Positions 25,333 through 47,356 of a stretch of DNA of 64,000 nucleotides are shown here, piece after piece (position 1 is the first letter of the stretch; every line of letters begins with the position of its first letter). The notes below the pieces were generated by a model. The model searched no databases, was not told where the DNA came from, and saw only the letters and a program-made list of their open reading frames with translations. The stretch is from an uncultured Saprospiraceae bacterium (GTDB taxonomy: Bacteria; Bacteroidota; Bacteroidia; Chitinophagales; Saprospiraceae). Location of the stretch: NCBI GenBank assembly GCA_937950315.1, contig CALFDU010000017.1, positions 1 through 64,000 of the forward strand, in the 5' to 3' direction. The translations under genes were made by a program, and so were the position numbers.

Positions 25333-28300
25333 ATGAAATCACTAACGTTTACAACACGTACAATTGCATCTAAAGCTGGAAAAAATGCTTTATTGTGCAC
25401 CTTATTAATTTTAGGATTCTTCAGCACTAATCCGCTGATGGCACAATGTCCACTACCATGTGGAAACACGCAATTATCTGTTAATGGAAGCTGTGAGGCA
25501 GAAATAACTCCAGGTACAATATTAACAGGAACGCTCGATGGCACATGTGCTTATAGAGTAATTATTACAGATTTAGACGATAATCTTATTGCTGAGTCAG
25601 AACTATTTGGAGGTGTATTATTGCATCCAACTATTTCTGTTAGTGATGGAACAGACTTCAAAGCAAGTGTAGCGTACACGGATGCTGATGGAGACGAATT
25701 TTCGTGTTGGAGTTATCTTACATTGGAAGATAAGTTGGCACCAAGTGTTGTTTGTCTAGATGATGTAACAGTAGCTTGTACAAAAAGCCATTCTGACGAT
25801 TTAATGACTTCAGCCAACCAGTGTCATACTGCAGAGTCTACAGACAATGTAAGTACCGATCCTGACGTGTTTGAATTCGCAATCGATGTAGCAAATTCTG
25901 CTTTACCTTGGGAGGTTATTACAGCCGCTCAGTTAAACATGGGAATTAGTTTTTCAGGTGTTGCTGCACCATTCGACGTTACGTTGGTAGGACCAGATGG
26001 TGCTTCTTATAGTGCGATGTATTCTCCAGCAGATGGAGTGAATGTGATGGCATTGATCGGACTTCAGGCCAGAGATGATATGGCCAATGGAGAATGGACA
26101 GTATTATTAAATACTTCAGGAATTGCTTCAATCAGTACAGCAGTTATGTGTATTGAAAGTACATCAATTTTTATTGATTCTCCAGATATCACTGACAACT
26201 GTTCAGATACTTCTGTAGACTTTTTATCAGATGATTTGATTGATTTAGATTGTGAAGGTCAGACTGCACCTATATGTGCTTTCGAAAGAATTATTTTATA
26301 TAGAGCTGTTGATGGATCTGATAACTACTCACCAACATGTAGTTTTACAATTTGCTATGAAAAACCTTCTCTGGTATCTGCTGAATTTGTATTTCCACCT
26401 AACGTGGATCTAACTTGCCAGCTTGATGATACCGATGGAGATGGGATTCCTGATTTTAATTTTAGCTCTTGGGATACCAACCAAAATGGTTACCCAGATC
26501 CTTCTGATGTAGGAGTAGGCTATCCAAGCATAGATGGTATCGATTTAATTCCAGGAGAAGAAAATTTATGTAAAATTTCTGTAGCTTATACTGATACAGT
26601 AATTGACATCTGTGATGGTGGTGGTTCATTCAAAGTTTTGAGAACTTGGACAGTTTTAGATTGGTGCGAAGGAACTTCAAGAACTTGGGTTCAGTCAATA
26701 AAAGTTGAAGATGATCAACCTCCATTTTTGGTTTGTCCTGCAGATACATTGACTTTTGAAGCAGCTGGTTATTCATGTACGGCTGACATAACTTTTGATC
26801 CTTTAAGTACTACTGACAAGACAGGTGTTCAATTTTTATTCGATTGCTCAAATGTTACTTTCGAAGTAGAATACTTGACTGCTGATGATAGAGACGTAAA
26901 TGAAGTTGATCAACCGTTTACACCAGCAATAAATAACAATGATGGAACATTTACCGCTGAAAATTTACCAGCAGATACTGTGTGGGTGAGATATGTAGCA
27001 ACCGATGCATGTGGTAATGTATCTGAATGTAGATTTGAAATATTTATAAGAGACAACGGCGCACCATTTGCCATTTGCGATCAGTTTACTGCTGTAGCTT
27101 TGAGTGAGGATGGATGGGCTAGAGCCAATGCAATTTCTTTTGACGACGGCTCTTACGATGCATGCACAGATGACGTGACATTCCAAGTAAGAAGACCTAG
27201 CACGCCTTGTAGCGCATTGCCGGATTACGATAGAGATGATACCTTGTTCGGCGACTATGTGCAGTTCTGCTGCGCTGATGCAGCGGAGGAATTTGTTCCA
27301 GTTGTGTTACTCGTAACAGATGCGTCTGGAAACACAAATACTTGTATGGTCAATGTTGAAGTTCAAGACAAATTTGGTCCTGATGTAACTTGTCCACAAA
27401 CCAACATTACGTTGACATGTGGTCAATATGATGCGGATGATTTATATGGTACTCCAAATAGACCAACAATTACAGATAACTGCACACCAAATATCGTTGC
27501 TGAATATGAAGATAGTGTCAGTATAGATGATGCCTGTGGAACAGGAACAGTTACAAGAAGATGGTTTTATACATTGGGAGCAAACAGAATTGATCTTGAT
27601 GACTGTACACAGAGAATTACCATTGATTCAGACTTTAATTCTGTAATTGTATTCCCAGGTGATTTAGATATTGATTGTTCTGAAGTTGCTACTTCATTGA
27701 ATGGTCCTACGATCAACGGAGTGCACGTAACTGATTACGAAGGATGCGCTAATTTTGCATATGCATTTGAAGATCAAAGATTTAATAATGTTGATGATAT
27801 ATGCTTTAAGATTATCAGAACACACACTGTCATTGATTGGTGTGTATATGTTCCAAATTCAGGAAACAATGCTGGTTTCTATACAGATACACAAGTAATA
27901 AGAGTATCCAATACCGCACCTCCAAGTATTCAAGAATGTGCAATGGAAATCTCTCAATCACTTGATGAGACAACATGTATGAATAGAGTAAGGTTGAATG
28001 TGCCTTGGGGATTTGATGACTGTATTCAAGAGCCAATCTTGCCTCATGATATGGGATATAATATCATGACCAATGGACAAATTGTCGAGGAGGTAGCTTC
28101 TATCTCAACAACAGATGGAACCATTACTTTGCAACCACTTCCGAAAGGAACACATACTGCCAATTTCTTTATTTTCAATAGTTGCAACAATCCGCCAGCT
28201 ACTTGTTCAGTGGATATAGTTGTTACAGAAACGGATACAATACCACCAGTACCTTATTGCTTTGGTGGCATCACAACAGTATTGATGAATCAAATGGGAG

Positions 28301-29805
28301 AATCACTACCAAGTGTTGAAATCTGGGCATCAGATTTTAATATTGGAGCTACCGATAATTGTACAGATTCAACTGACTTGGTATTTACTTTTGAAGATGG
28401 TTCTCAGTTTATGGAGCTAGGATGCGAAGACGAAGGCCTGATGACTATCTCAATTTTTGTAACCGATGAGTGTGGTAATTTTGATTTCTGTGAAACAACA
28501 ATTAGCATTCAAGCGAATGGATTGATATGCGATACAGTTGTGTTCGATTCAATGGGATTTGATCCTAATAATGTAAGGTTTAATCTTGCTGGATCTGTCT
28601 TTACAGAAAATGATGAAATGATCAAAGATGTTGAAGTAGTATTGAATAATATGAGTTCAGGATTTGATGATAGTAATGATACAGATGAAGAAGGACATTA
28701 CCTTTTCAATGACGTTTTAGCGAATGAAAATTATTCACTTGAAGCAGAAAAAGATGTTGACTATTTGAATGGAGTAAGTACACTTGATATTGTGCTTATT
28801 CAAAGACACATACTGGGAATAAGTGAGCTTGACAGTCCGTATAAGATTATTGCAGCAGATGCAAACAATTCTCAAACTGTTTCCGCATTGGATTTGGTAG
28901 AATTGAGGAAGTTGATACTAGGTGTTTATGATGAATTACCAGCCAACAACAGTTGGAGATTTGTAGACTCTGAATTTGTTTTTGTTGATGAAACATCACC
29001 ATGGCCATTCACAGAAACTATTGCAATCAACAACATGTCCGAAGACTTAATGACCAATGATTTTGTGGCTGTGAAGGTAGGAGATGTGAACAACAATGTG
29101 GTGATCCCAGGTTATGCTTCAAATGTAAATGTTGACTTTAGAAATTCAACGATTGTTAGTGTTGATAATGCAGCATTTACTAAAGGTGATTTGGTTTCAG
29201 TTCCATTGAATGCAGACTTCGATAATACATCAGGTTTACAGTTTGCTTTGAACTATGATTTCCACATGCTAGAGTTTGTAGGATTTAGTAGTGATAAATT
29301 TGCCTTGAGCGAAAACAACTATAGAGAAAGTCATCCAGGTATGATTTTATTCTCATGGAACGATGTCAAAAATGTAGATTTCATAGAGGCATTAAATGTT
29401 GAATTTAGAGCGGTTGCTGATGGTAACATTATGGACGCATCAATGGTCTTCGTAAATGAAATCTTGAGCAGCGAAATTTACAACGGAGCAAATGAAGTAA
29501 GTCAACTGAAATTACAAGTTGAAGGTCAAGTTGAAGCAATTGATCAATTGAGATTGTTACAAAACAAGCCTAATCCGTTTAGTGATAAAACCAACATTGG
29601 ATTCTACTTGCCTTCTCAAGGGAAAGCGACTGTAAGTATCCTTGATCTATCAGGTAAACTTATTTACAAGTACGAAGGAGATTTCAACAAAGGATTCAAT
29701 GAATTGGGAATAAATTCACATGATATCAAAGCAAATGGATTGCTTTATTATCAATTGGATACTGAGTTTGGCTCAGAAACCAAAAAGATGTTACTGATTA
29801 AGTAA
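25333..29805 (+). CDS. Giant secreted HYR/Ig-repeat protein with dockerin-like, cohesin-like and T9SS domains (paralogue 1)
   Basis: A surface or matrix protein of 1490 aa. Signal peptide about 1-38 (ends LMAQ). A cysteine-bearing N-terminal module ('CPLPCGNTQLSVNGSCEAEITP', about 39-145) is shared with the two paralogues. A P-domain-like jelly roll (about 160-280) and several HYR/Ig-like repeats follow, with 'DKLAPSVVC', 'DDQPPFLVCP' and 'DKFGPDVTCP' as repeat starts and 'TWTVLDWC' as a recurring core. The C-terminal block is a carboxypeptidase-regulatory-like domain, a dockerin-like pair of F-hands at about 1143-1200 ('NGVSTLDIVLIQRHILG' and 'ADANNSQTVSALDLVELR'), a cohesin-like domain (about 1275-1395) and a T9SS type A tail (about 1405-1490, 'LLQNKPNPF'). 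Likely exported by T9SS. Partner and binding target are not known. Confidence 0.85.
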   Translation: MKSLTFTTRTIASKAGKNALLCTLLILGFFSTNPLMAQCPLPCGNTQLSVNGSCEAEITPGTILTGTLDGTCAYRVIITDLDDNLIAESELFGGVLLHPTISVSDGTDFKASVAYTDADGDEFSCWSYLTLEDKLAPSVVCLDDVTVACTKSHSDDLMTSANQCHTAESTDNVSTDPDVFEFAIDVANSALPWEVITAAQLNMGISFSGVAAPFDVTLVGPDGASYSAMYSPADGVNVMALIGLQARDDMANGEWTVLLNTSGIASISTAVMCIESTSIFIDSPDITDNCSDTSVDFLSDDLIDLDCEGQTAPICAFERIILYRAVDGSDNYSPTCSFTICYEKPSLVSAEFVFPPNVDLTCQLDDTDGDGIPDFNFSSWDTNQNGYPDPSDVGVGYPSIDGIDLIPGEENLCKISVAYTDTVIDICDGGGSFKVLRTWTVLDWCEGTSRTWVQSIKVEDDQPPFLVCPADTLTFEAAGYSCTADITFDPLSTTDKTGVQFLFDCSNVTFEVEYLTADDRDVNEVDQPFTPAINNNDGTFTAENLPADTVWVRYVATDACGNVSECRFEIFIRDNGAPFAICDQFTAVALSEDGWARANAISFDDGSYDACTDDVTFQVRRPSTPCSALPDYDRDDTLFGDYVQFCCADAAEEFVPVVLLVTDASGNTNTCMVNVEVQDKFGPDVTCPQTNITLTCGQYDADDLYGTPNRPTITDNCTPNIVAEYEDSVSIDDACGTGTVTRRWFYTLGANRIDLDDCTQRITIDSDFNSVIVFPGDLDIDCSEVATSLNGPTINGVHVTDYEGCANFAYAFEDQRFNNVDDICFKIIRTHTVIDWCVYVPNSGNNAGFYTDTQVIRVSNTAPPSIQECAMEISQSLDETTCMNRVRLNVPWGFDDCIQEPILPHDMGYNIMTNGQIVEEVASISTTDGTITLQPLPKGTHTANFFIFNSCNNPPATCSVDIVVTETDTIPPVPYCFGGITTVLMNQMGESLPSVEIWASDFNIGATDNCTDSTDLVFTFEDGSQFMELGCEDEGLMTISIFVTDECGNFDFCETTISIQANGLICDTVVFDSMGFDPNNVRFNLAGSVFTENDEMIKDVEVVLNNMSSGFDDSNDTDEEGHYLFNDVLANENYSLEAEKDVDYLNGVSTLDIVLIQRHILGISELDSPYKIIAADANNSQTVSALDLVELRKLILGVYDELPANNSWRFVDSEFVFVDETSPWPFTETIAINNMSEDLMTNDFVAVKVGDVNNNVVIPGYASNVNVDFRNSTIVSVDNAAFTKGDLVSVPLNADFDNTSGLQFALNYDFHMLEFVGFSSDKFALSENNYRESHPGMILFSWNDVKNVDFIEALNVEFRAVADGNIMDASMVFVNEILSSEIYNGANEVSQLKLQVEGQVEAIDQLRLLQNKPNPFSDKTNIGFYLPSQGKATVSILDLSGKLIYKYEGDFNKGFNELGINSHDIKANGLLYYQLDTEFGSETKKMLLIK

Positions 29806-29824
29806 GATATAACTCCAACTATAA

Positions 29825-29859
29825 AGAAAGTCAAGGGTAGACTCTATCCTTGGCTTTCT
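29825..29859 (+). other. Strong hairpin without a T-run
   Basis: A 16-base-pair stem with wobble pairs closes a three-base loop, 20 bases after the stop of the first giant gene. No T-tract follows, so it may be a processing or mRNA-stability element, or a weak terminator. Confidence 0.5.
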
Positions 29860-29947
29860 GCGTAGTTAAGCCTCATATTAGTGTTTGCCTTCGTTTTCTT
29901 TATTGAAAATAACTTTCCTATTGATAGCTAATTAACATTTGGAATGT

Positions 29948-29955: not shown

Positions 29956-29977
29956 TCCTCTATACATTAAAATCCCG

Positions 29978-32900
29978 ATGATGCAAAAACACATTATCCT
30001 TTCTCTAGTTTGTTTATTCTTTTCATTTGGAGCAAATGCTCAGTTGGAAGTTGGCTTTTCGTCTTCTGATACAGCAGCGCCAGGTGGAACAGTAGACGTA
30101 GACGTTTCGGTTTCAAACTTTGACAATATCATTAGTGCCCAATACTTTATCCTATGGGATTCTTTGGTGCTATCATTTGACTCAGTTTTTAACGTAACGG
30201 ATGAATTGGAACAATTTTCAATAGGAAATATTGGAACTCCTGAAACCATCTTGAATGGTGAAGATGGAGAAATGACGGTTTCTTGGAGCCATTCAAGTAC
30301 CAACGCGTTCTCTCTTCCTGATAATACAGTACTTTTTACTGTAAGAATGAATGTAGAGGGCAACGATTGTGACTCAACAGCAGTTGCAATAGGAAATATT
30401 CCTCCTTTTCAAAATATTGAAGTAATTGACGGCGACTTCAACGATATAGGAGCAATCGCAACACCATTACCATTTGCACTACCAGGTACAGATTGTGAAT
30501 CTGGCGGTGGCGGCGGCGGTGGCGGCAATGATTTGCTTACGCTGAGCGGCTCAAATTTAAGTGGAGACATGGGAGACAATGTGTGCATGACAATCACTGT
30601 CGATAATTTCACAGATGTATTGGCTGCGCAAGGGGGTATGAGTTGGGATCCATCAGTTCTTAGCTATACTGGCGTAATGAACTTTGGTTTTCCTGATTTT
30701 GATGAAACGGCTTTTACTACAAATAATACGGATTCTGGTCAATTAAGCTTTTTGTGGTTTGATGATACCACCGTAAATCCAGTGACTTTACCGAATGGAA
30801 GTACCTTTTTTGATATATGTTTTGACATCATAGGTGCTCCGGGATCTTCAAGTTCTATTCAATTTGTAGATAGTCCAACAGTAGAATTCTCTAATTCTAA
30901 CAGTGAAGCAATACCGTTTACCACAACCAATATCACTATTTCCGTCAATGACGACGGAGGCGGTGGCGGCGGCGGCGGAGGTGGTGGCGGTTCCGCTGAT
31001 TTGACCATTACTGCTGAAAACGTTGCAGGTGCGCCTGGCACCAATGTTTGTGTGCCTATTACCGTTGATGGATTTGTAGATATACAAAGTGTACAGGGGG
31101 GAATTACGTGGGATGACAGTCAATTAAGCTTTACAGGTACTGATAATGAGGCACTTGCAAGCATGGCTTTCGGAGAAAATGGAAATTCCTTGAGTTTTGT
31201 TTGGTTTGATGATTCAGGTGTAATGCCTGTAACATTGCCTGATGGAGCTACTTTATTTGAAATATGTTTCGATGTTATTGGAACAGGAGGTACTACACAG
31301 ATCTCATTTGCTGAGAATCCACCTTTGGAATTCTCAGATTCTACGGGAGATGTACTAGAATTTGATGAAAATCCTGGTGTCTTTACCATTTCAGTCGGAG
31401 GAGTAATGCCTTTTGGGTTGAACTGTACTAATGCTACATTACCAAATGGTACCAATTCATGTATAGATATTACTACTGAAAACTTTACAAATATTGCTTC
31501 TGTACAACTTTCAATGACTTGGGACGCAAGTCAATTGACATACACCGGAGTTAATAATTTTGACCCAACGATTTCACCAGTAAGTGGACAGTTTAATCAA
31601 ACTGGTGCCAATGAATTGGGGCTTAGTTGGGCAAGTAGCAATGGGCAAGGGGTTACAGTTCCAAACAATACTACCATGTTTTCTATCTGTTTTGATGCAA
31701 TATCATGTAACGGAGCAGATATGACCGGCAGCTTGAATTTTGTAAGTGGATCTCAGGTTCCTATCGAGATTGGAGATGGAAATGCAGAAGTAGTGCCATT
31801 TGACTTTGAAACTTGTACTTATACCATTGATTGTGGAGGTGGAGAATGTGAAGTGAATTTTGGTACTGCCAATATTTCTGCACCGCAATGTTTCGGTCAG
31901 AGTACAGGAGGTATAACAGTAAATCCAATAGTAACTGGAGATGGATGTTCGTTGGTTTCATGTACTTGGTTTCAAGCCATCCCAGGAGGACAAGTAATTC
32001 CTACAACAGGATGTAATCTGACGGGTGTACCAGCTGGAAATTATTCATTGGTGGTTGATACAGGTAATGGAACTTTCCAAATGGATTACACAATTCCTAA
32101 TGCTCAACCAATTGAGATTCAATCAACAGTATTCCCAGTAACTTGTAACGCACTAGGAGGAATAAACACAACAATTACAGGTGGTTCAGGCAATTTTAGT
32201 TGTGAATGGCCATTCAATGGAGCGACAGGCTGCAACATTGGAGGTTTGGAACCTGGAGACTACACATTAATTATTACAGATAACGTTTTTGGGTGTTCGC
32301 AAGCGGCAGATTTTACTGTACCAGAAGACTTTGATTTACAAGGAACAGCAACAGCTTCAGGCGCTGATTGCGGAGGTGGTACAATCTCTATAACGATGAA
32401 TCAAGCAGGCCCGTTTAATTATGCATGGAGCCATGATCCTACAGTAAATGCTGCGGTTCAAAATAATTTAGATCCAGGGGCATATACTATTACGGTCACT
32501 GACCCTAATTTGAATTGTATGGAGATTGTTTCAGCTACAGTTGATCCAATGTCATCTTCATTAGAGATAGAATCTATCACGGTTAATCCTGCAACTTGCG
32601 TTGGAGGAGGGTCAGCAAGTATTAATATCGTTGGTGGGTGTTTGCCTTATTCTTGTGAAGTTACAGGAGGAAATACAATGTTAGACTGTGATAATCTGCA
32701 GGATTTAGCAGCTGGAATATATGGTATCATAGTAACCGATGCGAGTGGAACTATGGTGAGTGAATCATTTGTTGTTGATGAATTTGAGATGATTTCTGCA
32801 ACATTTACTAGCACAAATGTTTCTCTAACTGGTCCAGGTTCAATTCTAATAACGGATGTTGTAGGTGGCACAGGACCTTATACGTTCAATTGGACTACCA

Positions 32901-33851: not shown

Positions 33852-34814
33852 ATGAAAAAGCAGCAAGTTTTATTAGTGTTTATAGCTTTCTTCCTTTGTT
33901 CACTATCGATGAGTGGACAGGCGAGGTACTTTGATGAGAGGTATATTACTACGCAACATTTTTTAAATCCAATCCTTCTTAATCCTGGGGCAGCTGGTAA
34001 CTCTGAGTACCACAGATTACTTGGAAACTACAGAAGCAATTGGTCTACCTTTCCAGGAGCTCCTAAGAGTTATTTTCTAAGCTATGACGGACCTATCGGC
34101 AATAGATTGGGATTCGGTGCTTTGGTATTAAACGATAGGGTAGGAGATCTACAAACTACAAAAGGACAAGCAACGATCAGTTATACTATAGAATCTGAGC
34201 TTAACAAGCTAGGTTTTGGTTTATCTGGTGAGTTTATTCAGCACCAATTGAATGGTTCGGTCGTAAGCAATGAATTAAATGCGCAAGATCCAGAGCTAGC
34301 CAATCGATTGGATGGAACAGATTTCTTTGATGTTTCGTTTGGTATCAATGGTTTGTACAATGGAAATATTAGCTACGGTTTGGTTTTCCCAAATTTGATT
34401 AGCACGAGATTGGATGGTGTAGATGAAGGGTTTGAAGACAACTTCAATTATATATTACATGCAGGTTTCCTTTGGGATGTTGATGGTTATGATTTTGATA
34501 TTGAGCCGTCAGTGTTTGTAAAACAATTGAACTACGTTCCTTTACATATTGATCTTAATGTCCTAATGCATTTTCTAGATGATAAGCTATTGGGAGGCGT
34601 GAGTTATACCATTGGAGCAGATGAAAGATTGGGTTTCACTCTTGGTACTAGAGTAAATGCATTGAATTTTGCTTATTCTTATAATATTTCAAGAAATGAA
34701 TTCATTAGCTATAACAATGGTTCTCATGAGTTTTCGGTAAGGGTTGATATTGGAAGAAAAGATGCAACTTCAGCGAGTTCTGAAGTGAAAGAAATGATGG
34801 AAGAAAATAAATAA
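33852..34814 (+). CDS. PorP/SprF family T9SS-associated outer-membrane protein
   Basis: A 320-aa outer-membrane barrel of the PorP/SprF family, which helps type B T9SS cargo cross or attach to the outer membrane. Signal peptide about 1-23 (ends SGQA). The diagnostic N-terminal segments are 'QHFLNPILLNPGAAGN', 'LLGNYRSNWSTFPGAPKSYFLSYD' and 'LGFGALVLNDRVGDL', followed by alternating beta strands. The gene follows the cohesin-repeat cargo by 37 bases, the classic sprB-sprF arrangement, and ends at a strong terminator, so the two form one operon. Confidence 0.93.
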   Translation: MKKQQVLLVFIAFFLCSLSMSGQARYFDERYITTQHFLNPILLNPGAAGNSEYHRLLGNYRSNWSTFPGAPKSYFLSYDGPIGNRLGFGALVLNDRVGDLQTTKGQATISYTIESELNKLGFGLSGEFIQHQLNGSVVSNELNAQDPELANRLDGTDFFDVSFGINGLYNGNISYGLVFPNLISTRLDGVDEGFEDNFNYILHAGFLWDVDGYDFDIEPSVFVKQLNYVPLHIDLNVLMHFLDDKLLGGVSYTIGADERLGFTLGTRVNALNFAYSYNISRNEFISYNNGSHEFSVRVDIGRKDATSASSEVKEMMEENK

Positions 34815-35441: not shown

Positions 35442-35888
35442 ATGAAAAGTGTATTAAAGACCTTTTCGCAGAACACTTGGAGCGTGGTAAGTAAAGCTTG
35501 CCTTTCTGTTCTATGTGTTTTTGTATTCTCCTCAATGGGGAACGCTCAGAGTTTTATGGAAGCGACTGATGCTCAACAAACCTTAAGACCTATTCTACAG
35601 AATATGAAGTCTGCTGGTTTGGAGAGTTTACAGCAAGCTAAAATAAAGCTTACTAACGATAATGGTGTTATGGTCCAACAGACCATCTCATCTGACGAAG
35701 TTGGTGAAATGAGTATCCGCTCAGAATATTATACCTCTTTATCAGGGTATATTGACTGGGTTAATTATCCTAACGTAGTTGCCAATGCAATCAACAGAAA
35801 TCATCAAAAGATGACCGGACGTTTTACAGCATCCGAAGATTTTCTTGATCTGTTGAGATTGGAGGTTACTGAATTACTAACCAATTAA
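35442..35888 (+). CDS. Small exported protein of unknown function
   Basis: A 148-aa protein with a long signal peptide (about 1-36, ends GNAQ). The mature part is mainly helical and polar, with 'SFMEATDAQQTLRPILQNM' at its start and no cysteine, so it carries no lipid anchor or disulphide. No family is recognised. The gene lies 17 bases before the 2143-aa giant and shares its promoter, so it is probably co-expressed. A role as chaperone, accessory subunit or matrix partner of the giant is possible but unproven. Confidence 0.75.
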   Translation: MKSVLKTFSQNTWSVVSKACLSVLCVFVFSSMGNAQSFMEATDAQQTLRPILQNMKSAGLESLQQAKIKLTNDNGVMVQQTISSDEVGEMSIRSEYYTSLSGYIDWVNYPNVVANAINRNHQKMTGRFTASEDFLDLLRLEVTELLTN

Positions 35889-38900: not shown

Positions 38901-41900
38901 GTACACTTTGCTCAACTGGGTACCAGTATATTGCTTCTGGTGCTCCTAAAACTATGTTCGATGCTCCGCATACGTTCACATACATTGCTACAGATTGTTG
39001 TGGAAATGTAGGTGAAGCTGATATCGCAGTAACCGTTCTAGATAACACGCCTCCAGTTGCTATTGCTAAAGAGAATATCGTAATTAGTTTGACTTCTACT
39101 CCAGGTCAGTCTAATGGAATTGCTAAAATGTTTCCTCAATCAGTGGACAACGGTTCACATGATGGAGATTGTGGACCTGTCGTTCTTGAAATTAGAAGAG
39201 CTGACGGAGCACCTGCATGTGATAACCTAGGAGTAGATGATCACAACAACAACGTAACATTCAACAATGATGCTACACCTAACGTACCTTCTGATGCTGC
39301 GCATCCAGATGACGATAGAGATGACACAGATGGTGGACAGTTCGTTAAATTCTGTTGTGAAGATTTAACTGACATTGATGATAACGGAAACGCTTTTGGT
39401 ATCGTAGAGGTACTATTAAGAGTTTGGGATGATGGAAATATGACTGGTGTTCACGGTGACTTTGTTGACCTGAATGCAGATGGTGATTTCCAAGACATTG
39501 GTGAGTTAGATAACTTCAGTGATACTTGGGCTTATGTAAGAGTTGAGGATAAATTGGCTCCACAAATCTCATGTCCTGCTGATATTACTTTGAAGTGTGA
39601 TCAAGATTACACAGATACATCATTAACTGGAATGGCTAGCGGATCTGCTACTTGTTCAGGAATTGGTGTTACATACTCAGATGATACTAACATTAGCACT
39701 TGTGGTGCAGGTATCGTAGTAAGAACTTGGTGTATTGATGGTACTAGCAACTGCTGTACTCAAAACATTACAATTGATTACTTCAGTACTTGGGATCCTT
39801 GTGATAGAAATACTGGTATCCTTTGGCCAAGAGATTATACTGGTGAAGATGATCCAGCTGATCCTTGGTGTGGAGATGAAGATTCTCCAAGAGATGCAAT
39901 TGACTGTGCTGATACTGATACAGGAATTCCTACATGGACTGATAGTGCATGTGACCTTATCGGATACAGCTTAGATAGTGATACTTTCTACTTCGAATCA
40001 GATGCTTGTTTCAAAGTATTGAACAACTGGTCTGTAATCAACTGGTGTATTTATAACCAAAATGATGCAGATTGGAACACAATTCTTAATGAAGGATTAG
40101 ATAACGATAACGATGGTATCCAGAACTTATTTGACGCCGATGATAACGGAAACGGTGTTGATGATAGTTACTACTTCGAGCCAAATCTTGGTGAGTCATT
40201 CCAATTCTACTTTGACGATCAAGGTGGATTGTACTGGGTGAACTATACTACGGGTGAAGCTGGAAGATTATATTCAGTAGACGTTTGGGATCTTATCTTG
40301 GTTGATAGTGATAATGGTTACTTCGGTACATTTGATCCAGAAGCTGAAGATGATGGTATCGCAGATGGACTTTACGAGCACGTTCAGGTTGTTAAATTGA
40401 TTGACACTGAAGCTCCAGAAGTATCAGCTGAGGAAAACTGTTTCCCAGTTGAAGAAAACTGTTCATTGATTCCACCAGTAACTGCAGTAGCTTGTGATAC
40501 ATTAAGCGATTGTAACTCTGAGTGGATTAAGTGGCAAGCTGAGGTTGATATCTATGGTGACTGGGAGGTAGACTACGTTTACTCTTCATTCATTGCTGAT
40601 ATCCCTGCTAACAGACCATTCTACGTTGAGCCAACGCAATCATGTGAAGAAGTTTCACTTACATTGCCTGCGCCTATTGAAGGTTCAAAAGCACAACACA
40701 GAGTATTATGGAGAGCAACTGATGGTTGTGGAAACGTAACTTCTTATACTTCATACTTCACAGTTGAAGATAAGAAAGCACCAACTCCATACTGTATTAA
40801 CTTGAGCACTGCTCTAATGGAAAATGGAGAAGTTGAGCTTTGGGCTTGTGACTTCGATTTAGGATCATTTGATAACTGTACTCCAACTGAATGGTTGAGA
40901 TTCACATTCGATGGACCTGAAGAAGGATTCTTAGCTCCTGAAGATACTCCAATGTGGAACCCACAGACTAGTTGCCAAGGTAAAGTATTTGACTGTGGTC
41001 ACTTTGCTATTGCTCAAGCGAATGGAGGAAACTACCCAGTAAGACTTTACGTATGGGATGAATGCGGAAACGTTGACTTCTGTATGGTTAACCTAAGATT
41101 GGTTGATAACAATTTAGGTTGTCCTGGTAATGGACCATCTAGAGAGATATCAGGAGAGATTTATACTGAAAATGGAGATATGGTTGAAGACGTAAAAGTT
41201 CAGTCAATGGATATCGCTACAAATAACATGATGGGTCAAACTGAATCTGATAACAATGGTAACTACCTTCTAGTTAGTGCTGAAGGTTATGACTATGAAG
41301 TATCAGCTGAGAAGAATGACGATTACTTGAACGGTGTTACTACTTTAGATTTAGTACTTATCCAAAGACATATTCTTGGATTACAAGATCTTGATTCACC
41401 ATACAAGTTGATTGCTGCAGATGCAAGTAACGATGAGAGAATCAGTGCAATTGATTTGATTCAATTGAGAAAGTTAATCTTAGGTATATACGATGAGTTA
41501 CCAAACAACGGTAGCTGGAGATTCGTAGATGCTGAGACTACACTTAATGCTGAACAACCATGGCCGTTTACAGAAACATTATCTATTGCTAACCTTACAA
41601 CTGACATGATCGAAGAAGATTTCGTGGGTGTTAAAGTAGGAGATGTAAATGGTAGTGTAGTAACTAACGGGTTTACTGGTTCTGTTGAAACATCAACAAG
41701 ACAAGCAAACGATCTTATTTTGAACGCAATCCCTACATTATCAGCAGGTGAAGTTACAATTGATGTTACTTCAGCTAACTTTAATGAGGTATCAGGTATG
41801 CAGTTCACAATGAACGTTAACGGTTTAGAATTAACAAGCGTTGAAGCTGGTGCACTAGACGTTACTGCAGAGAACTTTGCAGTAGTGAATGGTAAAGTAA

Positions 41901-42337
41901 CTTCAAGCTGGAATAGCGATGTAGCAGTTACAACTGACGAAGTATTGTTCACACTTACTTTCGCAGGAACTAACGCTGATGCAATTGCAATCAACTCAAG
42001 CATAACTAAAGCTGAAGCTTATGTAGGTTCAGACTTAGAAGCTGTAGGAGTTGCATTGGAGGCTGCTTCAGATAGCGACTTCGCACTTCTTCAGAATGAG
42101 CCGAATCCATTTAACAATGTAACATTTGTTGGATTTACTCTACCTGCAGACGGACAAGCTACCTTAACTGTATATGATGTTACTGGTAAAGTAATGACTA
42201 CAGTTTCAGGTAACTATTACAAAGGATACAATGAGATTGAGTTATCTAAAAAGGATATGAATACAAGTGGTGTAATGTACTATCAGTTAGATAGTGGAGA
42301 TTTCACTGCTACTAAGAAGATGATTATCCTGGATTAG
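35906..42337 (+). CDS. Giant 2143-aa HYR/Ig-repeat protein with dockerin-like, cohesin-like and T9SS domains (paralogue 2)
   Basis: The largest gene here. Signal peptide about 1-25 (ends ATAQ). Two copies of a 'DTFGDGWNGG / DSFGDSWNG' module open the mature part (near residues 34 and 136). The shared cysteine module of the paralogues sits internally (about 490-590, 'ACNDDVNISVDESC', ending 'CWGYFTIEDKFPPSLEC'). A PPC-like beta domain and many HYR-type repeats follow ('DKLAPQISCPADITLKC', 'DTEAPEVS', 'DKKAPTPYC'), with aspartate-rich calcium-binding-like loops such as 'DNDNDGIQNLFDADDNGNG'. The C-terminal block repeats that of paralogue 1: carboxypeptidase-regulatory-like, dockerin-like (about 1804-1865, 'NGVTTLDLVLIQRHILG', 'ADASNDERISAIDLIQLR'), cohesin-like (about 1935-2055) and T9SS type A tail (about 2060-2143). 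Codon choice favours AAC, TAC, TTC and GGT-type codons more than the neighbours, suggesting strong expression. Confidence 0.87.
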   Translation: MNKTIRNIIMLLVVGMMSFTAATAQNTYTIKATDTFGDGWNGGELNVTVAGVTTSYTLATGGAIETAIGSFMLDIGDTADIELCGGSFPTEIGWSICDQDGLVVSSGSGSGIAANTCGPISTLTAAINCGLTLVKTDSFGDSWNGAMMDVVVNGVVVTTTTHNGGAFSECPLAAPDGATVEFVWTSLGTFAGELGFEVVDAFGATIFSTGPGGQALGTAFSYVQDCPVPCGVICPTSGSGTWVEQYFLQAGECCVQATIPVEIQGDCEIITSVEDGLNDDILCTLEAGPSAADDACAELQTFDPAAGTLTLIAPDDPAFGGSGANDCNFFGQVWQVSFPADGQICFDWDVTSEDPSFGGVDAFGYSLGVDWTTTPVTSGNLLNFTNVIATTISNGNMCVQGAAGEQLGLIAFDEFFGAFSFGPDGVLSVDISNFEFQTVGELPEGTVNFQTELCIGEDQIVEVAYDLTDGTSISCEVEIDVFAFSGDVSTALACNDDVNISVDESCMVLIGADIFLEGGPYACFDDYIVRIRPFGGTDYLVIDPATGDTNANTAYLALPAGQHIYEVLDPVTGNTCWGYFTIEDKFPPSLECDCPVGGNTDASFFTGEIVTGEDPVADWQAVGGCPATQPIKDGTAPIAATEFDVFAFTFDCEDEDYTISVTSSWGDAQAYLYNAPLDPTDICAGLVTYDGDGGAGFDSNVCVNSTASDPAGTVFYLYVSTWAAGQSGTYEVEIEGSSKECGATLIEGITAPECSFLCYDENNWEVIDQLPGVTVVDNCGAGDLTSNDVWIDGEACGERILLRNWLLTDPATGETTTCTQEFVFEAITVADLTLPPATVTLACGGDSSPEAIAADLGLETAYPHFFVGDKDFDDDGNFIGFVQRAVAVNNNVCNLFASYTDVDITDCPGCPGNKKVIRSWSILDWCDGSTTPYQQIIKASDSEAPFVSAPDVTVSVNPWTCTAEFYLPCPEHLGDDCYGDNLNYEVVGPAGVTITQVSSTLCSTGYQYIASGAPKTMFDAPHTFTYIATDCCGNVGEADIAVTVLDNTPPVAIAKENIVISLTSTPGQSNGIAKMFPQSVDNGSHDGDCGPVVLEIRRADGAPACDNLGVDDHNNNVTFNNDATPNVPSDAAHPDDDRDDTDGGQFVKFCCEDLTDIDDNGNAFGIVEVLLRVWDDGNMTGVHGDFVDLNADGDFQDIGELDNFSDTWAYVRVEDKLAPQISCPADITLKCDQDYTDTSLTGMASGSATCSGIGVTYSDDTNISTCGAGIVVRTWCIDGTSNCCTQNITIDYFSTWDPCDRNTGILWPRDYTGEDDPADPWCGDEDSPRDAIDCADTDTGIPTWTDSACDLIGYSLDSDTFYFESDACFKVLNNWSVINWCIYNQNDADWNTILNEGLDNDNDGIQNLFDADDNGNGVDDSYYFEPNLGESFQFYFDDQGGLYWVNYTTGEAGRLYSVDVWDLILVDSDNGYFGTFDPEAEDDGIADGLYEHVQVVKLIDTEAPEVSAEENCFPVEENCSLIPPVTAVACDTLSDCNSEWIKWQAEVDIYGDWEVDYVYSSFIADIPANRPFYVEPTQSCEEVSLTLPAPIEGSKAQHRVLWRATDGCGNVTSYTSYFTVEDKKAPTPYCINLSTALMENGEVELWACDFDLGSFDNCTPTEWLRFTFDGPEEGFLAPEDTPMWNPQTSCQGKVFDCGHFAIAQANGGNYPVRLYVWDECGNVDFCMVNLRLVDNNLGCPGNGPSREISGEIYTENGDMVEDVKVQSMDIATNNMMGQTESDNNGNYLLVSAEGYDYEVSAEKNDDYLNGVTTLDLVLIQRHILGLQDLDSPYKLIAADASNDERISAIDLIQLRKLILGIYDELPNNGSWRFVDAETTLNAEQPWPFTETLSIANLTTDMIEEDFVGVKVGDVNGSVVTNGFTGSVETSTRQANDLILNAIPTLSAGEVTIDVTSANFNEVSGMQFTMNVNGLELTSVEAGALDVTAENFAVVNGKVTSSWNSDVAVTTDEVLFTLTFAGTNADAIAINSSITKAEAYVGSDLEAVGVALEAASDSDFALLQNEPNPFNNVTFVGFTLPADGQATLTVYDVTGKVMTTVSGNYYKGYNEIELSKKDMNTSGVMYYQLDSGDFTATKKMIILD

Positions 42338-42370
42338 TCCGGGGCCGAAAGAAAATCGGTTTTTGGGATG

Positions 42371-42406
42371 GCCTCTCTCCAATTTATTGGGGGGGGGCTT
42401 TTTTTT
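42371..42406 (+). terminator. Terminator with a nine-G stem arm
   Basis: GCCTCTCTCCAA pairs with TTGGGGGGGGGC using C-G and T-G pairs around a four-base loop, followed by eight T. It is related in sequence to the terminator of the third giant gene. Confidence 0.8.
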
Positions 42407-42958
42407 ATGCCTAATTCTGAGATGAATAAGAGTAATAACCCACATACACACACACGCACATTATTATTGAAAGAAGTATATCTCAATACTATTGGCTATT
42501 CATAATGATCAAGCTGATAAATAACTGCCTATTGGGGTAGGATTTAGTACTAATTATAAGACTTAACCACATACTACTTAGATATAGGTATCTAGACACC
42601 ATTCTTTAAGTATCCATCTATATCTATATAATGTATACTAAGTAGTTACAAACGCATTCCGTTTTAGCTCTACTAATAGAGATTCAAAATTAATTTCTTA
42701 AAATTTATATTAAATAAATTTCATATATGTAATGTTTATAGGCATTTCAATAGATGAAAAAAAATAATTATCAAATATACCCTAAACAGGGTATAAGAAC
42801 ATATTAAAGAAAATCTATATTTGTTCTATCAAATAGTTTAAACCGCTATTAGATAACCTACCTACCTAAGTTAATAGACCACGTAAACATTTAAGTATTT
42901 CTTATTTGCTAAGTGCTAATAAGCGCATTTATAGCTGTAAGAAAAAAAATTGGATCTC
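42407..42958 (+). promoter_or_regulatory. Non-coding region before the third giant gene
   Basis: No gene is supported in about 550 AT-rich bases. It holds a short CA-rich microsatellite (42441-42460), several dispersed TATATAT-type tracts and a TATATTTG -7 element at 42816-42823, about 135 bases before the ATG, without a clear -33 element. The leader ends in ATCTC directly before ATG, as does the leader of the 148-aa protein gene. Confidence 0.4.
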
Positions 42959-45900
42959 ATGGTCAACGTAAACTACACAGCCACTTCTTTGGTGAAGTCG
43001 GTAATCTTACTTACTCTTTTATTCTTAGGTTCACACCTAAATGCGCAATGCTCATTGGCATGTAACGGAACTACCCAAGTTTCTCTTGATGTTAATTGTG
43101 AAGCATTGATTACTCCAGATATGATTCTAAACGACCAAGCTACTTCCTGTCCAGGAGGTGATTTTGAAGTTGTTGTAATGGATCAAGGAAATAATCCAAT
43201 CCCTTCTAGTCCTTTAGTAACGGCAGGGTATTGTGATCAAACATTATATGTCAAAGTAATTGACCTTGCATCTGGAAATACTTGTTGGGGAGAAATTATA
43301 GTTGAAGATAAACTGGGACCAGTTATTACTTCATGTCCAACAGTGCCTGTTGAATATGCTTGTAGTGACTTTACAGAATTTGATGGACCTATTTTCACTG
43401 ATGCTTGTTCAGGAATAGTAGAGCCTATCTTATTATCTGAGGTTGTAGTACCATTGAACTGCGATCCAATGTTTATCCAAGAAGTAACTAGAACATATAC
43501 TGCGCAGGATGGTAAAGGAAATTATGCTCCTGAATGTACTGTTACATATAAATTATTAAGAATTGATTTAGGACCTCCTAACGAACCATTTGAGGGATGT
43601 CCTCAAACATATACTGTATTGGAAAACAATGCGCTTCAATGTGGAGGTGCTTTTTCAGCAGGACAAACAGGTGGTCTTATCTTAGATACAGACACCGATA
43701 ATGATGGTGTGTTAGACGCTGACTTGATCTGGGATGATAACGGAAACGGATACCCTGATGTAGAAGAATTTGCTGGACCTACTTTAAATGGTGTAGCATT
43801 GTATCCAACACCAGATTTCTATTGTAACATAGGAGTATTCTTTGATGATTTGATTTTACCTACAATTCCTGGACCAGGAGGAGGAACTTCATGTGTAACA
43901 AAGATTATGAGAACATGGTATGTTAGAGAATGGTGGTGTGGACAAGAAATTGAAAAGACTTGCGCTCAAATATTTGAAATAACGGATTTGGTTGATCCAG
44001 TATTAGTATGTACTGGACCGATAACCCTAACAACGAATGTTTCATTGAACCCTCATGATTCATCTTTTGGGTCAGTGAATTGTGGAGCAGAGGTTGCTTT
44101 TCCTTTACCACAGGCTACGGACAATTGTTCTAGCACTTTTAGTTACGATTTAGAATTTCCAGGTGGTTCAGTACAAGATTACCAAGTAGGTGAATTGATT
44201 GAATTACCAATGGGATCAAACACAGTTACTGTTACTGTATATGATGATTGTCATAATAGTAATAGCTGTGATATTACAGTTAATGTTGTTGACGATACGC
44301 CTCCAGTTGCTATATGTGATGAGTTTACAGCAGTAGGACTTACGAATAGTGGTCTTGCGCATGTTTTTGCAGAAACTTTTGATGATGGATCTTACGATGA
44401 TTGTCAACTAAAGAAGATGCTAGTAAGAAGAATGGATAATTCAAATTGTGATTGTTCTTATCCTGCTTACGATGATATGACTTATTTAGGAACGTACGAT
44501 GAGAGACATTACTACATTTCTCAAAAAGAAGCACAACCATTCTTAGCACATGCTATGGCAGAAGCAATGGGTGGATTTGTAGGAACAATGGGAAGTGATG
44601 ATCCTGCAGAAGGAGTTTGGATTGCTGAACAAGCATTTGCTATTCAATCTGATCCTTATATGTTGATCAGAAATGGTGAATTGACTGTCATCAATGCTCC
44701 AGGATCTATGGGAGCTAGTGCACCAGTCGATGGAGCTAGTTATAACTACATATATGAGCTGGATGATCCTTGTACTTTCTCTTCTTTCACAGAATTTTGC
44801 TGTGCAGATGTAGGAACAGAACAAATGGTTGTTTTCAGAGTGGTTGATATTTTCGGTAACTACAATGAATGTATGGTAACTGCAGAGGTTCAAGACAAAG
44901 CAGCACCAACAGTTATTTGCCCACCGGACATGACAGTTGATTGTGACATGGTCTACGATGTAAATAATTTGGATGTTGAGTTTGGATCAGCTACATTTTC
45001 AGGTAGTTGTGATGTGACAGAAGATGTTACATTCACAGAAGATTTATCTCAATGTAACCAAGGTTCACTTAAGAGAACATTTACTGGAACAAATGGAAAT
45101 GGTATCACAACTACTTGTGATCAGATAATATATTTCTTAAACCCAGATCCATTTACAGAAGATCAAATTGAATATCCTGACGATATTGATGAAGATGGTG
45201 GATGTTTTGATGAAGGAAACTATGATCCTGATGTAGTTGGATCACCAGTATTCTTGGGAGATGCATGTGATTTAGTAGGAGCAAATTATGAAGATCAGAC
45301 TTTCTTCTTCAATAATCAACAAGAGCAAGGTTGCTTTAAGATTTTAAGAAAGTGGACTGTTATTGACTGGTGTCAAACTGATGCTAACGGTAACTTCGTA
45401 ACATGGTCGCATACACAAATAATTAAAGTAAATAATTTAGAAGCACCTGAAATTGTTTGTCCTACAGGACCAATTAACGTGTGCACATTTGACCCTGACT
45501 GTGCGTCAGGAGATGTTACACTTACATTAAGCGCACAAGATGATTGTACGGCTGATGAGAACTTAGAGTGGACATACTATATTGATGCTTTCTGCGACGG
45601 TACTTTCCAAGATACTGTTTCAGGATACGGAGGACTTGCAGATGCATCAGGAAATTATCCAATAGGAACACACTGCATACTTTGGGCATTCTCAGATCAA
45701 TGTGGAAACATATCAACTTGTTCACAAGAATTTACAGTTACTAATTGTAAAGCACCAACACCATACTGTCTTAACGGATTGGCTGTAGATCTAATGCCAT
45801 TGGATACAGATAATGATGGTGAAAATGATTGGGGTATGGTAGAATTATGGGCATCTGATTTTGATGCAGGTAGTTTCCACCCATGTGGTAATGAAATTAC

Positions 45901-47356
45901 ATTGTCATTCAGTGCAGACCCAACAGAGACTAATATGATTTTCGATTGTACAACACTTGGCAATCAAATTGTAGAAATCTGGGTTACAAATGAACTTCCA
46001 GACGGCACTTTGATTCAAGCATATTGTGAGACTTTCGTAAATGTTCAAGATAACAACTTTGCATGTCCATCAGGTGGAAATGGAGGAGGAGACCCAGGAA
46101 ATGGTCAAGATCCTACTGAATTTATTGTAGAAGGAAGAATAGTTACAGAGAATCAAGTTGATGTACAAGAAGTATCTGTAGAGCTAGAAGGAGCAAACAT
46201 TGCAGACTACATGACTGATGTACAAGGAGCGTACGCTTTCCCTCCTATGCCAATGGGTGGTAGTTATATCATCGATCCAGCAAAAGATATTGATCCATTA
46301 AATGGAGTTACCACTTTAGATTTGGTGTTGATTCAAAGACATATTCTTGCTCTTGAAACTTTAGATAGTCCATACAAGCAGATTGCTGCTGATGCAAATA
46401 AAGATTACAGAATTTCATCTCTTGACCTTATTGACTTAAGAAAGTTGATCCTAGGTATTCATGATGAATTCCAAAGTAATGAGTCATGGGTTTTTGTTGA
46501 TGCGCAATATACATTCCCGTTTGATGATGCACTATCAGCTATCTACCCTGAGGTTTATGATCTAACAAATCTAAACTCAGATATGAACATTGATTTCATT
46601 GCTGTGAAAACAGGAGATGTCAACAACTCAGTACAATTCCAATTCAATGGAGACAATACTGATACTCGTACAAACAATAAGGTAGAGTTGAACATGATGA
46701 CTTCTGAGTTTATCAAAGGAGATAACCAAGAGTTTTCATTGTATGCAACAGAGGACATGGAAACTTATGGATTCCAGTTCACGATTGCAACTGACAAGTC
46801 TGTAAAAATCTTGGATGCATACTCTACAGATTTAGGAATTGATGAGAGTAATGTTGGATTCGCTTACGCAAATGAAGGATTTGTTACGGTAAGTTGGAAT
46901 ACGACTAGCTTGAAGAAGATTGCAGCAGGAACTAAGATTCTTACAATGGTTGCAGACATAGAACATGCTGCTAATCCAAATACGCAAATATCAATCAGCT
47001 CGCAGATAACATCAGCTGAATTATATACAAAGAACTATGACGTCAAGACTCCGGTGATTGTATTAGACGGTGAGCAAGGTAACGAAATTACATACACATT
47101 TGACTTATATCAAAACAGTCCGAATCCATTCACCGGAGCAACAGAAATTGGATTTGAATTGCCTGAGGCAAGTTCAGGAAGACTGACAATTACAGATATG
47201 AGTGGAAGAATTATCATGATAGAGAAAGGAGAATTTAACCAAGGAACCAACTGGATCACTATTTCAAAAGATCAGTTGAATGCTTCTGGTATCCTTTACT
47301 ACACATTGGAAACAAACGAATACACAGCTACCAGAAAGATGGTGGTTTTAAGATAA
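42959..47356 (+). CDS. Giant HYR/Ig-repeat protein with dockerin-like, cohesin-like and T9SS domains (paralogue 3)
   Basis: A 1465-aa protein. The frame extends to a TTG at 42950, but the ATG at 42959 directly precedes a signal peptide (ends LNAQ) and is preferred. The N-terminal cysteine module ('CSLACNGTTQVSLDVNCEALITP' through 'CWGEIIVEDKLGPVITSC') aligns with paralogue 1. HYR-type repeats follow, including 'TPPVAICDEFTAVGLT', also found in paralogue 1, and a 'DTDNDGVLDADLIWDDNGNGYPD' calcium-loop segment. The C-terminal block is carboxypeptidase-regulatory-like, dockerin-like (about 1110-1175, 'NGVTTLDLVLIQRHILA', 'ADANKDYRISSLDLIDLR'), cohesin-like (about 1240-1370) and T9SS type A tail (about 1382-1465, 'YQNSPNPF'). 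Likely the same cell-surface role as its paralogues. It has its own upstream region and terminator, so the three giants can be expressed separately. Confidence 0.87.
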   Translation: MVNVNYTATSLVKSVILLTLLFLGSHLNAQCSLACNGTTQVSLDVNCEALITPDMILNDQATSCPGGDFEVVVMDQGNNPIPSSPLVTAGYCDQTLYVKVIDLASGNTCWGEIIVEDKLGPVITSCPTVPVEYACSDFTEFDGPIFTDACSGIVEPILLSEVVVPLNCDPMFIQEVTRTYTAQDGKGNYAPECTVTYKLLRIDLGPPNEPFEGCPQTYTVLENNALQCGGAFSAGQTGGLILDTDTDNDGVLDADLIWDDNGNGYPDVEEFAGPTLNGVALYPTPDFYCNIGVFFDDLILPTIPGPGGGTSCVTKIMRTWYVREWWCGQEIEKTCAQIFEITDLVDPVLVCTGPITLTTNVSLNPHDSSFGSVNCGAEVAFPLPQATDNCSSTFSYDLEFPGGSVQDYQVGELIELPMGSNTVTVTVYDDCHNSNSCDITVNVVDDTPPVAICDEFTAVGLTNSGLAHVFAETFDDGSYDDCQLKKMLVRRMDNSNCDCSYPAYDDMTYLGTYDERHYYISQKEAQPFLAHAMAEAMGGFVGTMGSDDPAEGVWIAEQAFAIQSDPYMLIRNGELTVINAPGSMGASAPVDGASYNYIYELDDPCTFSSFTEFCCADVGTEQMVVFRVVDIFGNYNECMVTAEVQDKAAPTVICPPDMTVDCDMVYDVNNLDVEFGSATFSGSCDVTEDVTFTEDLSQCNQGSLKRTFTGTNGNGITTTCDQIIYFLNPDPFTEDQIEYPDDIDEDGGCFDEGNYDPDVVGSPVFLGDACDLVGANYEDQTFFFNNQQEQGCFKILRKWTVIDWCQTDANGNFVTWSHTQIIKVNNLEAPEIVCPTGPINVCTFDPDCASGDVTLTLSAQDDCTADENLEWTYYIDAFCDGTFQDTVSGYGGLADASGNYPIGTHCILWAFSDQCGNISTCSQEFTVTNCKAPTPYCLNGLAVDLMPLDTDNDGENDWGMVELWASDFDAGSFHPCGNEITLSFSADPTETNMIFDCTTLGNQIVEIWVTNELPDGTLIQAYCETFVNVQDNNFACPSGGNGGGDPGNGQDPTEFIVEGRIVTENQVDVQEVSVELEGANIADYMTDVQGAYAFPPMPMGGSYIIDPAKDIDPLNGVTTLDLVLIQRHILALETLDSPYKQIAADANKDYRISSLDLIDLRKLILGIHDEFQSNESWVFVDAQYTFPFDDALSAIYPEVYDLTNLNSDMNIDFIAVKTGDVNNSVQFQFNGDNTDTRTNNKVELNMMTSEFIKGDNQEFSLYATEDMETYGFQFTIATDKSVKILDAYSTDLGIDESNVGFAYANEGFVTVSWNTTSLKKIAAGTKILTMVADIEHAANPNTQISISSQITSAELYTKNYDVKTPVIVLDGEQGNEITYTFDLYQNSPNPFTGATEIGFELPEASSGRLTITDMSGRIIMIEKGEFNQGTNWITISKDQLNASGILYYTLETNEYTATRKMVVLR

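Follow-up and report, generated by a model that had tools for sequence, protein, structure and literature searches.

Cohesin array, SprF partner and dockerin-bearing giant proteins in a Saprospiraceae genome: a probable enzyme-free surface scaffold

Introduction

The window analysed here, 64,000 nucleotides from an uncultured Saprospiraceae bacterium, contains a locus in which a cohesin-array protein, a PorP/SprF protein and three giant proteins, each ending in a dockerin-containing cassette, are encoded together. What would these cohesins and dockerins hold together? According to a passage of PMC5244752 that cites Peer et al. 2009, the role of such modules is unknown where no cellulosome is involved. 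The literature searched, subscription papers apart, yielded no account of Saprospiraceae dockerins or of a type IX secretion system (T9SS) combined with cohesins and dockerins like the present one, and no report of cohesins within SprB-type proteins. The reading that we favour, and consider reasonably probable from the sequences, is that an SprF-anchored, enzyme-free scaffoldin holds T9SS-exported giants via cohesin–dockerin bonds.

Results

Organisation of the locus

The locus coordinates were re-checked and the gene coordinates are correct (Table 1).

Table 1. Features of the locus. For the window, own-profile E-values are inflated, the profile having been seeded with modules from it.
Feature	Positions	Strand	Evidence and remarks
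LuxR-type response regulator	24538..25221	+	GerE 8e-22, Response_reg 2e-15 (Pfam); directly upstream
Giant 1, P0001, 1490 aa	25333..29805	+	signal peptide, Cys-rich HYR-like Ig repeats, C-terminal dockerin-cohesin cassette, type A tail
Giant 1 X module, CarboxypepD_reg-like	28582..28740	+	Pfam CarboxypepD_reg 2.6e-7, just under cut-off; own profile 3e-19
Giant 1 dockerin	28744..28938	+	Pfam Dockerin_1 2e-4, just under cut-off; own profile 3e-36
Giant 1 cassette cohesin	29122..29535	+	own profile 6e-33
Giant 1 T9SS type A sorting tail	29548..29802	+	TIGR04183 2.6e-7, over cut-off
Cohesin-array protein P0002, 1278 aa	29978..33814	+	signal peptide, 4 cohesins, SprB repeats, type B T9SS tail
Array cohesin 1	30059..30460	+	own profile; most diverged of the array
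Array cohesin 2	30539..30958	+	AlphaFold model, cohesin fold
Array cohesin 3	31001..31396	+	own profile
Array cohesin 4	31415..31840	+	own profile
SprB-repeat region of P0002	31898..33517	+	Pfam SprB 1.4e-9, three stretches
Type B T9SS tail of P0002	33542..33811	+	CHU_C E 1.5e-18 (Pfam); TIGR04131 over cut-off
PorP/SprF, P0003	33852..34814	+	Pfam PorP_SprF 2e-51, TIGR03519 6e-52
P4, small secreted protein	35442..35888	+	between SprF gene and giant 2
Giant 2, P0005, 2143 aa	35906..42337	+	
Giant 2 dockerin	41306..41500	+	Pfam Dockerin_1 2.7e-4, just under cut-off; own profile 2e-37
Giant 2 cassette cohesin	41690..42073	+	own profile 2e-36
Giant 2 T9SS type A tail	42080..42331	+	TIGR04183 6.6e-8, over cut-off
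Giant 3, P0006	42950..47356	+	start probably ATG at 42959
Giant 3 dockerin	46277..46471	+	Pfam Dockerin_1 2.8e-5, over cut-off; own profile 1e-34
Giant 3 cassette cohesin	46655..47074	+	own profile 3e-38
Giant 3 T9SS type A tail	47099..47350	+	TIGR04183 4.8e-8, over cut-off

The LuxR-type response regulator is the probable regulator of the locus. Its relatives stand immediately upstream of the locus in three genomes of the same genus (73–98% identity; in the third, the match covers 52 residues at the end of a contig) and in three further genera (37–43% identity), so that the upstream regulator recurs in four genera in total. The small protein P4 matched no family over cut-off in the Pfam and TIGR searches; relatives with 37–42% identity occupy the same position in G001, G002 and G004, a retention at genus level.

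The cohesin array and its anchor

The initial annotation had read four cohesin-like modules into P0002, and these are confirmed. Pfam Cohesin (PF00963) matches the protein in three stretches with an E-value of 9.6e-18, and our own profile finds all four modules at 1e-37 to 1e-47, subject to the inflation stated in Table 1. When a profile made from the four window cohesins alone was compared with the PDB, cellulosomal cohesins ranked first (E 6e-4). The AlphaFold model of array cohesin 2 has a pLDDT of 84, and all 50 PDB matches listed for it are cohesins, the best with an E-value of 6.7e-11 and a TM-score of 0.82. By the profile matches and the match of module 2 to the cohesin fold, a nine-stranded jelly roll, the modules of P0002 are four true cohesins.

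The type B tail and the PorP/SprF partner ascribed to P0002 are likewise supported by family matches (Table 1). Together with a T9SS translocon in the genome, in which SprA is represented by a partial match within a 605-aa frame, they make P0002 a type B substrate with an adjacent SprF gene. GldC is also present in this genome. The tails of type B substrates bind PorP-like proteins, and they require the linked shuttle (PMC9143113, PMC12618676).

The giants

All three giants carry the TIGR04183 tail that defines a T9SS type A substrate, in agreement with the initial annotation, and the F-hand pairs noted there have proved to be dockerins. Each pair shows the two F-hand repeats with calcium-loop ligands of a type I dockerin; PF00404 is over its cut-off in giant 3 and just under it in giants 1 and 2. 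Run against the PDB, a profile built from 14 paralogous dockerins matches solved dockerins at 5e-7 and 3e-6, so the dockerin assignment is secure. In calcium loop 2 the ligands D1, N/S3, S/D5, S/T9 and D12 are conserved, while loop 1 is atypical, with a leucine at position 5.

The cohesin-like domain claimed for each giant was undetected in P0001, P0005 and P0006 by the Pfam search. Its counterparts in paralogous giants of the same genome match Pfam Cohesin with E-values down to 8.5e-11, and hhalign relates the cassette cohesin family to the array cohesins with 95% probability (E 2e-8). Judged by family profile and hhalign alone, these domains are diverged cohesins. Chance F-hand or Ig look-alikes were rejected, since the profiles find solved cohesins and dockerins. 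For the complete cassette of 413 aa, an AlphaFold model from three rows reached a pLDDT of 42, too low for conclusions on docking.

The cassette across the genome

At the carboxy-terminus of the giants the modules follow the order X–dockerin–linker–cohesin–type A tail, and this cassette is found on 18 giants across the genome; the reading as a trio specific to this locus was accordingly rejected. The dockerin is its best-conserved module, with 62% identity among 15 paralogues; the linker has 39%, the sorting tail 33% and the cohesin 25%. A dockerin so well kept is expected if the giants share one partner. A cassette cohesin is present in 57 of the 65 dockerin proteins found and the full cassette in 55; in three of the eight exceptions an array-type cohesin replaces the cassette cohesin.

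In the cassette cohesin, Gln41 of a G-x-Q-F motif is 98% conserved, and Glu112 and Tyr114 are 95% conserved. The glutamine aligns with Gln37 of the solved complex 2Y3N, where that residue forms a hydrogen bond to the backbone of the dockerin (PMC8063739). All four array cohesins have the glutamine, as do about 74% of 90 non-cassette cohesins. The cassette cohesin, which keeps this residue, is a putative dockerin binder, its partner probably being the dockerin of its own chain or that of another giant.

Neither the locus nor the remaining dockerin and cohesin proteins scanned yielded a glycoside hydrolase or a carbohydrate-binding module (CBM). In 16 other dockerin or cohesin stretches, the Pfam scan returned adhesin-type domains, the sole enzyme domain being a redoxin on a dockerin protein without the cassette. 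A cellulosome, defined by dockerin-bearing polysaccharide-degrading enzymes and a CBM-bearing scaffoldin, was therefore rejected for this cargo, as the initial annotation had held; cohesins and dockerins occur here in one organism without cellulosomal enzymes, the noncellulosomal situation.

The neighbourhood in related genomes

A cohesin array, an SprF gene and a dockerin giant are adjacent in 13 of 20 testable genomes of the family, representing nine of 15 genera. In the pooled background, computed from hit lists, a type B gene lies near a dockerin in 5 of 167 cases (about 3%). Against this background the proximity of array and dockerin has a binomial p of 8e-11 at genus level, the neighbourhoods of related genomes being non-independent events. 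Among 27 type B genes in the window's genome, none other than the array gene has a dockerin domain within 15 kb; one of them stands immediately next to a giant of 5470 aa.

Two genera with arrays (G007 and G012) have no dockerin giant within the fetched flanks, and in G010 and G011 dockerins are present and array-type cohesins are not detectable. Separate single-cohesin proteins occur in G008 and several genera, and SprB-repeat or type B genes other than arrays adjoin dockerin giants at L080, L085, L102 and L113.

Discussion

By analogy with work on F. johnsoniae and P. gingivalis, from which we infer export and anchoring, P0002 would be a type IX export, tethered to the outer membrane through its type B tail and a PorP/SprF barrel of its own, and would display four cohesins outward atop a stalk of SprB repeats. 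Giants 1 to 3 and the 15 giants encoded elsewhere would be exported via their type A tails; after tail cleavage, the carboxy-terminal dockerin would plug into the array cohesins. Docking would gather giants that are otherwise free or LPS-linked into a coat of Cys-rich HYR/Ig-like arms. We infer both the binding of dockerins to the array and the coat or adhesive role. The earlier proposal that the dockerin ends of the giants bind the array gains only indirect support, from the conserved neighbourhood and interface residues. With the cassette on 18 scattered giants, the array would serve giants from the whole genome as a docking hub, not three neighbours alone.

Each giant carries both plug and socket, so that chaining of giant to giant, or self-docking, is also conceivable. 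In the former case, which appears rather unlikely, each dockerin would engage the cohesin in the following giant's cassette, giving carboxy-terminal fibres or a mesh, with the array confined to nucleating or capping the chains. The frequent co-occurrence of dockerin and cassette cohesin, the interface residues kept in a cohesin that has otherwise drifted to 25% identity, and the dockerins of G010 and G011 without detectable array-type cohesins all suit such chains. However, trans and cis binding fit these data alike, and the retention of arrays beside giants would be explained solely as an anchor. A combined arrangement, in which SprF-anchored arrays nucleate head-to-tail chains into an enzyme-free polymer coat that the T9SS/gliding machinery might move via SprF, seems similarly doubtful.

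Cis binding without any intermolecular assembly, the dockerin clamping its own-chain cohesin into a rigid carboxy-terminal unit for folding or T9SS export, is still less likely. It is favoured by the fixed order of dockerin, linker, cohesin and tail and by the 39% identity of the linker, but it leaves out the array cohesins, which are conserved beside dockerin giants on a chain without a dockerin, and the separate single-cohesin proteins. Least probable of all, and in our view very improbable, is that the cohesins and dockerins are mere structural Ig-like or spacer modules of surface proteins whose genes simply cluster. The four loci where other SprB-repeat or type B genes adjoin dockerin giants point that way; the contrast between background and arrays and the conservation of interface residues argue against it.

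The favoured arrangement, an anchored scaffoldin with docked giants, resembles the cellulosome joint used without enzymes, probably for a surface coat. Like the cellulosomes of Clostridium, Acetivibrio and Ruminococcus flavefaciens, it has tandem cohesins on a non-catalytic scaffoldin, many dockerin cargo proteins, the same cohesin and dockerin folds and the dockerin-binding glutamine. It differs in being exported by the T9SS and anchored through SprF, where cellulosomes use S-layer or sortase attachment, and in its scanned cargo, which lacks glycoside hydrolases and CBMs and consists of giant adhesin-like proteins, each also with a cohesin. Adaptor scaffoldins such as R. flavefaciens ScaC contain one cohesin and one dockerin. 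They share plug and socket per chain with the giants' cassette, whereas the giants are 1.4–5.5 kaa long with Ig-like arms and a T9SS tail. From SprB and SprF of Flavobacterium johnsoniae the locus shares the SprB repeats, the type B tail and the adjacent PorP/SprF gene, but P0002 is proposed to dock other proteins, not to serve direct gliding adhesion.

Ca. Stygibacter (Cloacimonadota; PMC8542988) is predicted from MAGs to have a cohesin scaffoldin with a carboxy-terminal surface-attachment sorting domain, for which that paper cites a T9SS review, and dockerin cargo. Its cargo, however, comprises GH18, GH57 and peptidases and its scaffoldin has CBMs (PMC8542988), in contrast to the enzyme-free giants, SprB repeats and linked SprF found here. 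In ANME archaea and their sulfate-reducing partners, too, noncellulosomal cohesin and dockerin proteins accompany HYR-type adhesion domains, with a proposed role in cell contact (PMC5244752, PMC10553843). They belong to other phyla, use other export and have no SprF-anchored array locus; pairing is predicted in both systems.

This compact, conserved and anchored locus is a test case for noncellulosomal cohesin and dockerin function. It also gives protein engineering a new source of natural joints, which probably depend on calcium. It links the cohesin–dockerin joint with the type IX system through a specific SprF anchor, and suggests a way in which Bacteroidota may retain giant type A exports at their surface.

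Module composition of the locus

All six genes of the initial annotation are present in the window with correct coordinates. They belong to a Bacteroidota MAG of 4.3 Mb in 165 contigs, which also encodes GldC and SprA (for SprA, the match is partial and falls in a 605-aa frame). Family and profile matches confirm that the array protein P0002 combines four cohesins with SprB repeats and ends in a type B T9SS tail; its neighbour P0003 is a PorP/SprF protein, and the giants P0001, P0005 and P0006 each have a dockerin and a diverged cohesin ahead of a type A tail.

The module identities are supported beyond visual reading and in-house profiles. A profile of the four window cohesins has cellulosomal cohesins as its top PDB matches (E 6e-4), improving to E 2e-5 when five relatives are added, and for the AlphaFold model of array cohesin 2 (pLDDT 84) 50 of the 50 PDB matches listed are cohesins, the best with E 7e-11 and TM 0.82. 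A profile of paralogous dockerins recovers solved dockerins (E 5e-7 and 3e-6), while the profile of the cohesins at the giants' carboxy-terminus (cassette cohesins) recovers type II cohesins (E 6e-5) and matches the array cohesins in profile-profile comparison (95%, E 2e-8). The array cohesins contain a conserved cysteine pair on two strands, each cysteine occurring in about 68% of 90 non-cassette cohesins (percentages are per cysteine, not per pair); this pair is probably a disulfide.

The LuxR response regulator gene directly upstream of the locus keeps its position within the genus and is also found immediately upstream in G009, G017 and G021 (37–43% identity). The haem peroxidase gene is kept upstream in two same-genus genomes (65–71% identity).

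Coordinates of features in the window and in three further loci
Feature	Position	Strand	Remarks
M36 fungalysin metalloprotease, secreted	9552-13760		PA domain, MopE metal-binding motif, DUF11; near locus
Reprolysin-like metalloprotease, secreted	14853-18491		Cadherin-like domain, T9SS tail; near locus
1150-aa ORF	18565-22017	-	Between reprolysin-like protease and peroxidase genes; nothing in Pfam at E 0.01
Animal-type haem peroxidase	22284-24191		Type A T9SS tail; Pfam An_peroxidase 1e-145
LuxR response regulator	24538-25221
P0001, giant 1	25333-29805	+
P0002, array protein	29978-33814	+
Array cohesin with cysteine pair	30539-30958		Example
P0003, PorP/SprF	33852-34814	+
P0005, giant 2	35906-42337	+
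G run, then T run	42376-42410		3' of giant 2, in 612-bp AT-rich gap preceding giant 3
P0006, giant 3	42950-47356	+
L084 (G000:C74), window's genome	3831-4874		348-aa redoxin (AhpC/TSA) protein, carboxy-terminal dockerin
L099 (G037:C161), another family of the order	424-6709		Two adjoining proteins
L104 (G005:C216), same genus	11194-14597		Array protein cut to one cohesin, two overlapping ORFs

A genome-wide cassette

Pfam finds 20 dockerins in the window's genome, and 18 of them, including the window's three, sit in a shared carboxy-terminal cassette of giant proteins, ordered X (CarboxypepD_reg-like), dockerin, linker (about 60 residues, WRFVD...GVKIGDVNG), cohesin and type A tail. With related genomes included, 57 of 65 dockerin proteins have the cassette cohesin, and in 55 the cassette is complete; of the remaining eight, three contain an array-type cohesin in its place. 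Array-type cohesins that are not accompanied by a dockerin were found in two gene products of the window's genome, P0002 and a protein of 689 aa with a single cohesin. At L099, both proteins are ordered cohesin, dockerin, linker, cohesin (array-type), type A tail, a possible intermediate architecture.

In further dockerin or cohesin proteins of the genome that were scanned, Pfam identifies HYR, DUF11, DUF7507, SdrD_B, C-type lectin and P-domains. Their sole enzyme domain is the redoxin of L084, on a protein lacking the cassette; no other dockerin protein seen in the genome is enzyme-like.

Conservation of the neighbourhood

Arrays fetched with their flanks from related genomes and annotated reveal a conserved block: a dockerin giant, an array protein (one to eight cohesins together with SprB repeats and a type B tail), SprF, and one or more dockerin giants. 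It is present, complete or partial, in the same-genus genomes G001–G004, where giants 1–3 have orthologues with 54–77% identity outside the cassette, and in genera G006, G009, G014, G017, G019, G020, G021 and G023. The array is immediately preceded, in seven genera (G006, G014, G016, G020, G021, G022, G024), by a gene for a small one-cohesin protein with a type A tail. In G007, G012, G015 (on a short contig), G016 (where the contig ends) and G022, the retrieved flanks of the array contained no dockerin giant, and none adjoined the single-cohesin array versions of G005 and G018. The G005 version (L104) has a split frame, through either a frameshift or an assembly error.

Leaving aside G013 and G024, where too little contig is available, the array neighbours a dockerin giant in 13 of the 20 genomes that could be assessed, or in 9 of 15 genera when counted by genus. 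No dockerin domain is found within 15 kb of any of the 27 other type B genes in the window's genome, though one of these genes (C2) directly adjoins a 5470-aa giant. In seven pooled genomes, selected for having the locus, 5 of the 167 listed type B genes other than arrays have a dockerin within 10 kb (relatives' type B matches were taken down to E ~2e-12, with four arrays added by hand). Against this 3% background, 9 of 15 genera corresponds to p ~8e-11, for genera that are not fully independent because of shared ancestry.

The predicted cohesin-dockerin interface

In solved complexes, the cohesin 8-3-6-5 sheet carries the dockerin helices and provides a glutamine that forms a hydrogen bond to the main chain of the dockerin (PMC8063739, PMC5934362). 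In B. cellulosolvens CohScaA11 (structure 2Y3N) this residue is Gln37 (PMC8063739); its counterpart in R. flavefaciens CohScaB5 is Gln778 (PMC5934362). The cassette-cohesin profile aligns G-x-Q-F to S-G-Y-Q37-F of 2Y3N; its glutamine is 98% conserved (n=57) despite 25% overall identity, and Glu112 and Tyr114 are 95% conserved. The interface glutamine is also present in all four window array cohesins and in about 74% of the 90 non-cassette cohesins, and hhalign places the cassette and array glutamines in register.

In the giants' dockerin, the second calcium loop is fully canonical, while the first has leucine at position 5, making its calcium use uncertain. Position 11, equivalent to Val-662 of RfDocScaA (PMC5934362), is mostly hydrophobic in both repeats. 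Among 15 paralogues, the dockerin is the most alike module (62% identity, with 33% for the T9SS tail and 25% for the cohesin), as expected if all dockerins share one partner.

Relation to known systems and proposed assembly

The system resembles a scaffoldin-dockerin assembly in its working. A cellulosome was ruled out, as the dockerin and cohesin proteins scanned include no cargo with GH or CBM domains. The system belongs among the noncellulosomal cohesin-dockerin sets, the function of which is described as unknown (PMC5244752). Two described systems come nearest to it. One is the set of cohesin/dockerin adhesins in ANME archaea and the bacteria they partner with (PMC10553843); the other, the Ca. 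Stygibacter scaffoldin, likewise has a surface-attaching carboxy-terminal domain, but its cargo is enzymes (PMC8542988). In the literature searched, no cohesin array of SprB type that is linked to SprF and accompanied by giant dockerin adhesins is described.

The initial interpretation, a T9SS-exported surface system in which the giants' dockerins bind the array cohesins, is plausible and now has comparative support from the neighbourhood and the contact residue; dockerin-array binding, the coat and a gliding role stay predictions. Type B tails bind, and require, linked PorP/SprF proteins, and type A tails go via PorV, with P. gingivalis anchoring them to anionic LPS (PMC9143113, PMC12618676). 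P0002 would be a scaffoldin held by SprF, to which the giants would attach via their dockerins. The cassette cohesin may bind another giant, forming a chain, the dockerin of its own chain, as a clamp, or something else. Docked on the array scaffoldin, the giants would build an enzyme-free coat.
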